This document shows, piece by piece, positions 4,732-29,585 of a DNA stretch of 64,000 nucleotides. A program made the position numbers and the translations under genes. The notes under the pieces are model-generated. The model was not told the DNA's origin and made no database searches. It saw only the letters and a program-made list of their open reading frames with translations. The stretch is from Hydrogenophaga sp. (lineage in GTDB: Bacteria > Pseudomonadota > Gammaproteobacteria > Burkholderiales > Burkholderiaceae_C): assembly GCF_019635465.1 (NCBI RefSeq), contig NZ_JAHBZK010000010.1, positions 86,819-150,818 on the forward strand. The letters run 5' to 3'. Position 1 is the stretch's first letter; every line of letters starts with the position of its first letter.

Positions 4732-4979
4732 TGTGTGAAGCGGCACCCTTCCAGGGCGCTGGGGATCGGCCTTTCGGGGCTGCCGCTCAGGGCATGCACC
4801 CGCTCAGTGGGGGGCCGATGGATTTCCGGGGAGATTGGCGGCGTCCGCACGGGAGGCGCGCCCCAGCAGGCAGCTGGTGCCGGGCCTACTGACGTGCCCG
4901 ACGGGGCGTATTGTGGCATGGGTCGATAATCCCGGGGTCGCGCGCCCGTCCGGGGCGCTGCAAATTTCCCACAGACACC

Positions 4980-6718: not shown

Positions 6719-7264
6719 ATGAACGAAGAGACTGTTCTCGCCGCGACGCGGCACTGGATCGAGATGGCCGTGATCGGCCTCAACCTGTGCCCGTTCGCGC
6801 GGGCTGTGTGGGTGAAGAACCAGGTGCGCATCGTGGTCAGCACGGCACGGCACGTGGATGCCTTCCTCGACGACCTGGACCGCGAGCTGGACCTGCTGGC
6901 CCAGACACCCGCGGAGCAGATCGATACCACGCTGATCGTGCACGCCTCGCTGTTCCCCGACTTCGAGGTCTTCAACGATTTTCTGGGTGTGGTCGACGAG
7001 ATCGTTGACGAGCACGAACTCGACGGCGTGATCCAGGTCGCCGCGTTTCACCCGCAGTGGCAGTTCGACGGCACCGAGGCCGAGGACATCACCAATGCCA
7101 CCAACCGCTCGCCGTTCCCCACCCTGCACCTGTTGCGCGAAGACAGCGTCTCGCGTGCGGTGGCCAGCGAAGGCGGTGACGCCGAGGCCATCGTGGCGCG
7201 CAACATTGAGACTCTGCGCCGCCTGGGGCCGCAGGGCTGGACCGACCTGCTCTCGAAAGCCTGA
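6719..7264 (+). CDS. DUF1415 family protein
   Basis: A 181-residue cytoplasmic protein of the DUF1415 family, of unknown function. Recognisable features are NLCPFA near residue 24, a central FHPQWQFDG, and NRSPFPTLHLLRE near residue 120; these are the conserved blocks of the family. It lies 77 bases after ettA and 94 bases before the DUF1631 gene on the same strand. Co-transcription is possible but not shown by overlap. Confidence 0.9.
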   Translation: MNEETVLAATRHWIEMAVIGLNLCPFARAVWVKNQVRIVVSTARHVDAFLDDLDRELDLLAQTPAEQIDTTLIVHASLFPDFEVFNDFLGVVDEIVDEHELDGVIQVAAFHPQWQFDGTEAEDITNATNRSPFPTLHLLREDSVSRAVASEGGDAEAIVARNIETLRRLGPQGWTDLLSKA

Positions 7265-7358
7265 TCTGGTGTGAGAAACCCCTCGATTTCCCGGGTTGTG
7301 GGATTGGCCAAGAGCGCAGAATGTGCGGCATCCGCCGCCACAAGCGACCGAACTGCCC

Positions 7359-27672: not shown

Positions 27673-28497
27673 TCAGGCCCCGTCGCGGTTGGGTGCGTTG
27701 ACGGTGGCGTCGTAGGCGTGCCAGGTGGCATGCCCGATCACCGGCCCGATCACAAGCAACCCCAGGAACCAGGGCGCCATCGCCAGCGCCACCGTCAGCG
27801 CGATCAATGCACCCCAGCACAGCATCACGCCCGGGTTTTGCAGACACGCGCGGATGCTGGTCAGCCCGGCCGAGATCGCGTCGGTGCCACGGTCCAGGAT
27901 CATGGGGATGCTCACCACACTGGTGACGAAGATCAGCCCCGCGAAGATGGCGCCCACCACCGTCCAGGTGATCAGGAATTCGATGTTCTGGCCGCTGAGC
28001 AGTTGCGTCAGCAGGTTGTGCGCGTCGGGCATGGTGTTGAAGGTGACGGCAAACACCACCAGCGAGGCCCGGCCCCACAGCATCTCGAGGATCAGCAGCA
28101 CACCCGCAAAGATGGCCATGGTGCCCTTGGTGGGCACCCAGGCGCGCAGCGAGCGCCGCAGCGACGGACGCTCCCCGCGTTGCAGGGCGCGACTGGCGTC
28201 GTACAGACCCAGGCAGAGGAAGGGCCCCATCAGCAGAAAGCCCGCGGACAACGCCAGCACGTAGGCCGGCGCCTGCTGGAACACCCACAGCAGCGCATGC
28301 CCCATCAGGAAGAAGCAGGCGCCGTAGAACAGGCCGATGCGCGGGCAGCGCACAAAGTCGGCCCAACCGGCGCGCAACCAGGCGAGGGGTGCAGACACGT
28401 TCAGCGCGGCAATGCGCAGATTGAAAACCGATGACTCTGACGCGGCAGGCGCGGGTTCCTGGGTGTCGGGTGGCGTGGGGTCCGTGGTGGCGTTCAT
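27673..28497 (-). CDS. DUF2189 family integral membrane protein
   Basis: A 274-residue inner-membrane protein of the DUF2189 family, with about six predicted helices. Family blocks are LRAGWADFVRCPRIGLFYGACFFLMG near residue 41, LMGPFLCLGLYDASRALQRGE near 88, and WHAYDATVN near the C terminus. The first ~35 residues are soluble and Pro/Ala-rich. Function is unknown. Its start codon directly abuts the left arm of the 273-bp palindromic element at 28498-28770. The ribosome-binding stretch (AAGG, six bases upstream) is therefore contributed by that element, a possible route for control. Confidence 0.88.
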   Translation of the reverse strand: MNATTDPTPPDTQEPAPAASESSVFNLRIAALNVSAPLAWLRAGWADFVRCPRIGLFYGACFFLMGHALLWVFQQAPAYVLALSAGFLLMGPFLCLGLYDASRALQRGERPSLRRSLRAWVPTKGTMAIFAGVLLILEMLWGRASLVVFAVTFNTMPDAHNLLTQLLSGQNIEFLITWTVVGAIFAGLIFVTSVVSIPMILDRGTDAISAGLTSIRACLQNPGVMLCWGALIALTVALAMAPWFLGLLVIGPVIGHATWHAYDATVNAPNRDGA

Positions 28498-28770
28498 CTA
28501 GGGCCTTTTCACACTATTTTTCCAAGTGCGAACGGGGTGAAAACAGCGCCAATCCAGGCGCGGGACGACGGCCAGGCTGGCTGCCTGGCCTGGGAGTGCA
28601 ACGAAGAGTGGCGCTGTTTTCACCCCGTTCCCTGCGGGTTGCGGCCAAAAAGGGCCATGCGCCGCGTTGCGAAGCCTCGCCGGGCCACCGGCCCGTCTGC
28701 GTTTCGCGCCTTGCGCATGGCCTTTTTGATCCGCAACGCATCTTGGAAAAATAGTGTGAACAGGCCCTAG
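28498..28770. repeat. 273-bp nested inverted-repeat element (MITE-like or structured RNA)
   Basis: Terminal inverted repeats of 29 bases (28498-28526 with 28742-28770) differ at one position and begin CTAGGGCCT. Inside are two separate hairpin arms. Arm A pairs 28531-28550 perfectly with 28610-28629 (20 bp) and has an inner 8-bp hairpin at 28570-28590. Arm B pairs 28653-28662 with 28713-28722 (10 bp), extended by CAAAAA/TTTTTG with one bulge, and has an apical hairpin CGGGCC-ACC-GGCCCG at 28681-28695. No reading frame of substance lies inside. The layout is a three-way junction closed by the terminal repeats. Confidence 0.85.
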
Positions 28771-28841
28771 CGATTGGGCCACCGACAGCGCATGGCCCTG
28801 ATGCGGGCTTTCCCCGAGGGCGCCCCCTACACTCGCCGGCC

Positions 28842-29585
28842 ATGAGCACGTCCGAGTTTTCCCCGCCCTACCTGTCGCCCCACGCCATGGACACCGCCTT
28901 GCGCGAGCGCGGGGTGGGCTTGCTCAGTGGTGCAGACACCGCGGCCTGGATCGGCGTGCCGCTGGCCGCGCTGCGTGAACTCGAGCCGTTCTGGCACCGT
29001 CTCGCACCCGACAACTACCTCAAGGACGGTGGCCGCTACCGCCAGCGCCGGCACAGCTGCTTTGTGGTCGACGGCGAGCGACTCACCCAGGTGCCGCACC
29101 GGGCCCATTGGCAACCGGTGGAATACAACGCCTTGCACGGCGGCATGCAGCGCTGGTTTGAACCGATGGAAGACGCCATGGTGGCGTCAGCCGCGTGGCA
29201 GCGCTTGCTGCTGCGCCTGGGCGCCGCGGCCAGCGCCTTGCGCGGCCCGCAGCCCTGGTTCGTGGAGGCACATCCGTTTCGCATCGACACCACCGACGGC
29301 ATTGGCCGACCCACGCCCGAAGGCGCCCACCGCGACGGCGTGGACCTGGTGGCGGTTTTCCTGGTCGGGCGCCACGCCATCAAGGGCGGCGAGAGCCGGG
29401 TATTCGACGCCAACGGCCCCGGCGGCCAGCGCTTCACGCTGCGCGATCCGTGGTCGTTGCTGTTGCTCGACGACCCGCGCGTGATCCACGAAAGCACACC
29501 CATTCAGCCCGACCCGGCCGATGGGCTGGGCTGGCGCGACACGCTGGTGGTGACCCTGCGCGCGGGCGGCTTTCAGGGGGCGTGA
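28842..29585 (+). CDS. 2OG-Fe(II) dioxygenase family protein
   Basis: A 247-residue protein of the bacterial 2OG-Fe dioxygenase family (related to PF10014). The likely iron ligands are His163 and Asp165 (GAHRDGVD) and His216 (RVIHEST), with a later Arg in DTLVVTLRAGG suited to 2-oxoglutarate binding. Members hydroxylate free amino acids or related small molecules in studied cases; the substrate here is unknown. There is no signal peptide. It starts 71 bases right of the palindromic element and its end overlaps the convergent MOSC gene by 13 bases. Confidence 0.88.
   Translation: MSTSEFSPPYLSPHAMDTALRERGVGLLSGADTAAWIGVPLAALRELEPFWHRLAPDNYLKDGGRYRQRRHSCFVVDGERLTQVPHRAHWQPVEYNALHGGMQRWFEPMEDAMVASAAWQRLLLRLGAAASALRGPQPWFVEAHPFRIDTTDGIGRPTPEGAHRDGVDLVAVFLVGRHAIKGGESRVFDANGPGGQRFTLRDPWSLLLLDDPRVIHESTPIQPDPADGLGWRDTLVVTLRAGGFQGA

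Follow-up and report, generated by a model that had tools for sequence, protein, structure and literature searches.

The element described here is located in a stretch of 64,000 nt from a Hydrogenophaga sp. genome (contig NZ_JAHBZK010000010.1), which is referred to as the window. It occupies the gap between the divergent genes for a DUF2189 membrane protein and a 2OG-Fe dioxygenase. The annotated start of the DUF2189 gene adjoins the element, as had been noted when the region was first described from its sequence (the original prediction). The locus contains the following features:

27673..28497, minus strand: gene for a DUF2189 membrane protein (Pfam PF09955), its ATG touching the element
28498..28770, plus strand: MITE copy including the target bases (CTA at 28498-28500, TAG at 28768-28770)
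28501..28526, plus strand: left terminal inverted repeat, GGGCCTTTTCACACTATTTTTCCAAG; the consensus has G at 28507
28530..28630, unstranded: arm 1, a hairpin with a 25-nt stem and a small hairpin as cap; missing from the forms of ~164-169 bp
28630..28638, unstranded: stretch joining the two arms, CCCTGCGGG; the consensus of 34 copies reads CCCTTCGGG
28638..28737, unstranded: arm 2, a hairpin which bears the conserved core
28660..28716, plus strand: core of 57 nt, an imperfect hairpin with the conserved unpaired sides GCGTTGC and GCGCCTTGC, common to elements with other ends
28742..28767, minus strand: right terminal inverted repeat
28842..29585, plus strand: gene for a 2OG-Fe dioxygenase (PF10014), divergent from the DUF2189 gene

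The sequence from 28498 to 28770 is a three-way nested palindrome made of inverted ends and two arms. Including the target bases, the terminal inverted repeats (28498-28526 / 28742-28770) are 29 nt long and 97% complementary, while the 25-nt stems of arm 1 (28530-28554 / 28606-28630) and arm 2 (28638-28662 / 28713-28737) are 96% and 84% complementary, respectively. On our reading, the outermost CTA and TAG represent the insertion site and the element proper corresponds to 28501-28767 (267 bp). The calculated folding energy of the DNA is -111.4 kcal/mol, compared to -55.2 +/- 3.9 kcal/mol in 200 dinucleotide shuffles (z -14.6), and the z value for RNA is -13.4; none of the 200 shuffles folded equally well, neither as DNA nor as RNA. 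Complementarity and folding thus bear out the nested palindrome with 29-base inverted ends and two arms that was originally proposed, and its order indeed goes beyond chance. The additional statement that no coding frame lies inside does not hold in the strict sense: four frames of 77 to 111 aa cross the element, but none of them found support as a gene, which was sought without protein-library comparison.

On the minus strand, the motif AAAAGG is present within the element end, 6 nt before the DUF2189 ATG, and judging from this sequence it is possible that the element supplies the ribosome site of the gene. At position 28507, solely the window copy among 34 aligned copies has T instead of G. 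This turns GAACAGG into GAAAAGG near the DUF2189 ATG (minus strand), which is nearer to a ribosome site.

Copies of the element at several unrelated loci, which the original prediction had named as a sign of mobility, were found in the source genome and in the genus. The source genome contains 10 near-full copies (E<=1.7e-58, identity 79-100%), four copies of ~45 bp, two truncated copies and two pieces ending at contig ends. At E<=1e-5, matches were obtained in 18 of 60 genomes including the source, namely in 16 of the 36 Hydrogenophaga genomes and in 2 of the 24 others, where both matches are weak. Two of the genus genomes (G033 and G035) match in short stretches only, mainly in the core of arm 2. 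Scanning of a collection of named genomes with the exact 23-nt end revealed 35 stretches, 26 of them labelled as Hydrogenophaga. A pair of ends is present in 21 of the 35, spaced 265-267 bp in 18 cases, 164 bp in two and 297 bp in one; the others comprise short forms, one truncated copy and pieces that break off at the end of a contig or locus. No match to the 273-bp element was obtained by blastn in plasmids or phages. Draft contigs often stop inside elements (contigs C9 and C22 of the source genome, G000, and contig ends of G015, G111 and G165), and thus copy numbers are probably underestimated.

Empty sites were detected at two loci. In G022 and G028, both flanks of the window copy are kept and the element is absent. 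In these genomes 6 bases separate the CAT of the DUF2189 start from ATTGGGCC, versus 8 bases (CTA, TAG and CG) plus the element in the window, which fits an insertion with duplication of 2 bases. The second locus is filled in G032 (L029) and G017 (L030), which are 91% alike across a query of 1,470 bases, and is empty in ten other relatives examined. Here, two close empty relatives have 8 bases and the filled sites 9, a difference of 1 nt and not of 2 nt. At both loci the insertion is just before an apparent start codon. Of the 40 distinct copies whose flanks were compared, 22 are bordered by TA at either end and 13 by TA at one end and TG or CA at the other, while 5 show neither pattern; TA is missing from at least one side of 18 copies. 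The proposed target-site duplications would be in line with the 22 copies and with the 2 nt gained at the window site, whereas the single nucleotide gained at the L029 site leaves their size doubtful. In the 13 copies with TA at one end, TG and CA at the other represent the same change when read into the element; it seems to be commoner than changes within the ends.

Of the features by which MITEs are recognized, the element shows short length without a supported gene, terminal inverted repeats, multiple dispersed copies and ends shared with an autonomous element. An IS5-family element, whole or in pieces, is present in 15 of 67 genomes of the genus. It contains frames for DUF4096 and DDE_Tnp_1 and matches the NCBIfam model transpos_IS5_3 (NF033580 group), one frame being above the cut-off. 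Its ends are GGGC(C/G)TGTTAACAC preceded by YTA, read as GGGCCTGTTAACAC and GGGCGTGTTAACAC, each after YTA, and its sites are Y-TA-R, the same as those of the MITE. Each of its ends agrees with the MITE end at 14 of the 16 terminal bases, the likeness being limited to the outer ~16 bases. In contrast to the MITE, the IS5-family element is ~0.83 kb long and has a transposase, and its locus L152 is without the core hairpin. An autonomous IS with the exact MITE ends was not found among the 35 exact-end stretches, several of which are cut by contig ends, and the available DNA around them does not contain a second end at IS distance. In the source genome, which is 88% complete, PF01609 and PF13358 gave no match, and therefore no mover is known there. 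Another transposase of 333 aa with a DDE_Tnp_1 domain was observed in G025, in an element with GGGAAGGTCTGC(A/C)AAAC-like ends and 8 matches of equal score (for example L141 and L158); this element seems to have expanded recently.

The copies were next compared for changes in the paired positions. Six of the 40 copies, five differing in length and one lying at a contig start, were left out, so that the alignment comprised 34. Both sides have changed in 45 of 105 pairs, compared to 10.4 in shuffles and 4 to 8 with slid partners, and 98.1% of the cells are paired; none of 500 shuffles was as high. The one-sided leftovers consist of 36 G-U and 32 A-C cells (28 and 27 distinct states) besides 33 cells with other mismatches, a count from which the pair at the target site and three almost invariably G-U pairs were excluded. 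Selection acting on a transcript would be expected to preserve G-U but to remove A-C pairs. The absence of a G-U excess in these sequences points to pairing at the level of DNA, or to copying of one arm onto the other.

The shorter forms differ in their junctions. In the one-arm forms L083 and L078 the junction is at GGGTTG, at the base of both arms; in L037 it shows a two-base match; in the ~45-bp forms it is at or near GTGYGAAC, and in L082 at AACAG. These differing junctions at short repeats fit slipped replication across an extruded hairpin, by which the arms may have been lost. The forms of 45 to 54 bp (L022-L025, L089 and L082) are scarcely more than two ends.

Based on these data it can be asked whether the palindrome acts on its neighbours. 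According to the original prediction, it could be a structured RNA or DNA switch, i.e. a leader whose folding controls DUF2189. The position between the ATG and the upstream region, the strong RNA fold and the weak ribosome-site-like AAAAGG inside the element end agree with such a role. However, a cis-regulatory RNA is expected to keep its place before one gene family and to covary in a way that tolerates G-U on the strand that is transcribed, whereas copies of the element are present at unrelated loci, relatives have DUF2189 without it, and one-sided leftovers are about equally A-C and G-U. Moreover, no promoter-like site and no Rfam family were detected within 28300-29000, the four Rfam matches for this region being far below the gathering scores. 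With copies elsewhere and empty sites in relatives, this candidate was rejected, and we give it almost no credence. Hardly any more plausible is a transcription terminator or attenuator, spread through its effect on neighbouring genes. Its strong hairpins would be suitable, and one terminator-like match exists on the minus strand, but shuffles contain on average 0.6 such matches, which leaves no clear excess, and this reading was rejected as well. Convergent genes are also not in excess around the copies (8 convergent, 10 divergent and 21 tandem, n=39), as judged from a rough orientation count in which open frames ran to the flank ends and distances were discarded. The element is best regarded as a gene-less small mobile element with many copies in Hydrogenophaga, a MITE rather than a DUF2189 switch, and the MITE-like alternative of the original prediction is the one upheld by copies at unrelated loci, empty sites and TA at both ends of 22 of the 40 copies.

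The family to which this MITE belongs is wider than its ends suggest. With the whole element as blast query, arm 2 was also matched in palindromes whose ends are clearly unlike those of the MITE. From 19 arm-2 hairpins of four end families, a covariance model of the core (57 positions) was built, and hence matches to these four families are given by construction; the elements of G104, G135 and G149 are outside the training set, although the G104 ends are similar to those of L041, a family used for training. At E<=1e-4, the model matched 42 of 200 genomes and 27 of 108 genera of one order, which we take to be Burkholderiales from the taxonomy of Hydrogenophaga and on which the search was concentrated; three genomes have more than 20 matches. 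Most matches lie in palindromes whose ends are of another kind. In 75 sources, with 40 further places added, 90 matches were found, 82 of them distinct. In 15 elements a second, weaker match is present on the opposite strand ~108 bases away (E 4.6e-6 to 0.0073), indicating that their two arms are inverted relatives; arm 1 of the window copy gave no match to the core model at E<=0.01. In the source genome itself, two nested palindromes of 268 bp (L229 at C25:58568 and L230 at C6:22072) contain the same core between other ends (GGGGTCTGCTGATGC and GTCCAATGAATCAGAG).

Among the 75 best cores, 7 are too near an end to be judged. Of the 68 assessable ones, 63 are enclosed by an inverted repeat and 5 are not; a repeat score of >=13 was reached at 59 of the 68 core loci versus 3 of 135 random windows. 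Of these 63 elements, 37 are 260-289 bp long and, by a crude test, 36 are flanked by TA at either end; as the search takes the best-scoring inverted repeat, some outer ends may be misplaced, as seems to be the case in L253 and L261. Across the 82 cores, 16 of 18 core pairs change on both sides (331 cells versus 101 in shuffles), while the unpaired sides GCGTTGC and GCGCCTTGC are retained. The covariation amounts to 0.567 versus at most 0.110 in the slide control, which is the fairer comparison because the alignment of the 82 cores was fitted to the model structure. The leftovers in this wider set (7 G-U versus 32 A-C cells, with two G-U-rich pairs set aside, one of them T-G in 77 of the 82 cores) give no sign of a plus-strand RNA, and in Rfam the 19 sibling loci have no match at gathering. 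The core model gave no match in seven IS loci, so that an origin of the core as a remnant from inside an IS seems unlikely. In viral contigs, the core pattern was found in one contig, with two matches, both in one-arm elements. This contig (L339) carries them around 4780-4836 and 7213-7269, with GGAACCTCTGAACAATTCC-like ends.

The ends that surround the core are diverse. The types comprise GGGCCTGTTCACAC, GAGCCTGTTCA, GGGCTCGTTAATG, GGAGCCTGTCGGACTTAA, GAGCTTGTCCGTAAATAA and GAGCGTGTTATGCAC, and further GAACGTGTTTACG, GTCCAATGAATC, CTAGTGTCCTGAGT, CTAGTGTAGTGCTTC and GGGAAACGCTGAACAAG. In 2 of the 24 genomes tested, the ends of core elements match an IS of the same genome, and no such partner was identified in the other 22. 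In G104, the GGGAAACGCTGAACAAG ends agree at 17 of 19 bases with those of an IS5-like element, whose transposase matches NF033580 below the cut-off (E 3e-14). In G135, the CTAGTGTAGTGCTTC ends agree at 18 and 19 of 20 bases with those of an element encoding a DDE_3 transposase above the cut-off, of the IS630 kind. Overall, NF033580 matched in 7 of 14 genomes, in 2 of them above the cut-off (the elements of G104 and G158 being below), and PF13358 in 5 of 10 genomes. Similarly, the GGCAACGCTGAACAAGT ends of the one-arm family L041 of the genus resemble the IS ends GGCTACGCTGAACAAGT (L143 and L144), and the GGAACCTCTGAACAATTCC ends of the viral contig are alike at 15 of 18 bases to those of an IS of G158.

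These matches suggest a single DNA passenger carried by several movers unrelated to each other, and the simplest reading of the sequences is that the core may have outlived changes of mover. It is tempting to speculate, with considerable reserve, that the core hairpin pair is itself the mobile unit: a DNA structure recognised by a widely shared protein, which would pass between unrelated TA-targeting transposons or capture their ends and thus be a non-coding passenger on several transposase superfamilies across the order. As regards the shared passenger only, it is also conceivable, though again doubtful, that an old palindromic lineage kept the core by descent while its ends drifted with IS5-type transposases, without any exchange. 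This would agree with the IS5-like ends of the GRGCYYGTT kind and the like length of most two-arm families (the 260-289 bp class given above), and within family A both ends have changed in a paired manner. However, the IS630-like ends shared with the IS of G135 and those shared with the IS of G104 look underivable by drift. A different mover is also to be considered. REPs and BIMEs, which occur with a RAYT, are built from imperfect hairpins that come in inverted pairs and contain conserved unpaired bases, and the two arms described here resemble a BIME in this respect, so that a RAYT (Y1) transposase recognising the bulged core hairpins could move or maintain the repeat. Indeed, Y1_Tnp is present in 34 of 42 core-bearing versus 89 of 158 other genomes (Fisher p 0.004, in a test which ignores kinship and genome size and treats both 200-genome draws as the same genomes). 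On the other hand, such a repeat is expected together with a RAYT in the genome, and Y1_Tnp has no match in 8 of the 42 core-bearing genomes, including G126 with three core matches (E 1.4e-15 to 4.5e-11); a Y1_Tnp gene is not needed here. The ends and the Y-TA-R sites fit DDE transposases, whereas REPs are not known to have inverted ends of this type. What is left is a loose statistical link; a RAYT partner was rejected and appears improbable to us.

Taken together, the element is very probably a MITE moved by an IS5-family transposase, with a palindrome kept as DNA and a core shared with elements of other ends. It codes for nothing known, and an IS5-family transposase provided by another element would bind the GGGCCTGTTCACAC ends and insert the MITE at Y-TA-R sites, with a probable duplication of the TA. 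The nested palindrome would be kept as DNA, a change in one half being matched in the other, either since paired DNA is selected or since replication copies one arm onto the other. Deletion of arms at short repeats at the hairpin bases may then give rise to the forms of ~164-169 and ~45-54 bp. The core is shared with elements whose ends correspond to further IS5-like groups or to an IS630-like element, and the conserved unpaired bases in it would most likely be explained by a bound protein.

A MITE is commonly defined through the single IS whose ends it copies; here the inside is conserved and the ends change. The Correia elements (NIMEs) of Neisseria contain internal sequences of up to 156 bp between inverted repeats of 26 bp; their end sequence is different, and they are not known to contain a two-arm palindrome. 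The nearest precedent for one core between different ends, in build only, is provided by the BOX elements of streptococci, which are short non-coding modular repeats with a variable inner module; Streptococcus suis has two BOX families with the outer modules A/C and E/F around the same boxB module (PMC3049150). BOX differs from the Hydrogenophaga element, in which two hairpin arms in inverted orientation form the inside, the outer parts match IS5-like and IS630-like ends, and the core extends over 27 of 108 genera within one order. RUP of pneumococcus, a repeat of 107 bp with ends like those of the resident IS630-Spn1, its proposed mover, is described as a simple repeat with one end type and not nested (PMC3049150). 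No prior description of the element was found among the papers listed in literature searches, as judged from titles and the beginnings of abstracts; with subscription papers thinly covered, this negative result counts as weak evidence.

The identification of this family could be important for several reasons. If the relationships hold on a proper tree, they would show a DNA structure without genes to be capable of changing its mover, and would give reason to seek a core-binding protein. They would also offer a natural record of palindrome evolution, in which dozens of copies document paired substitutions and the deletion of arms. Last but not least, the elements may account for contig breaks in the draft genomes of this group.
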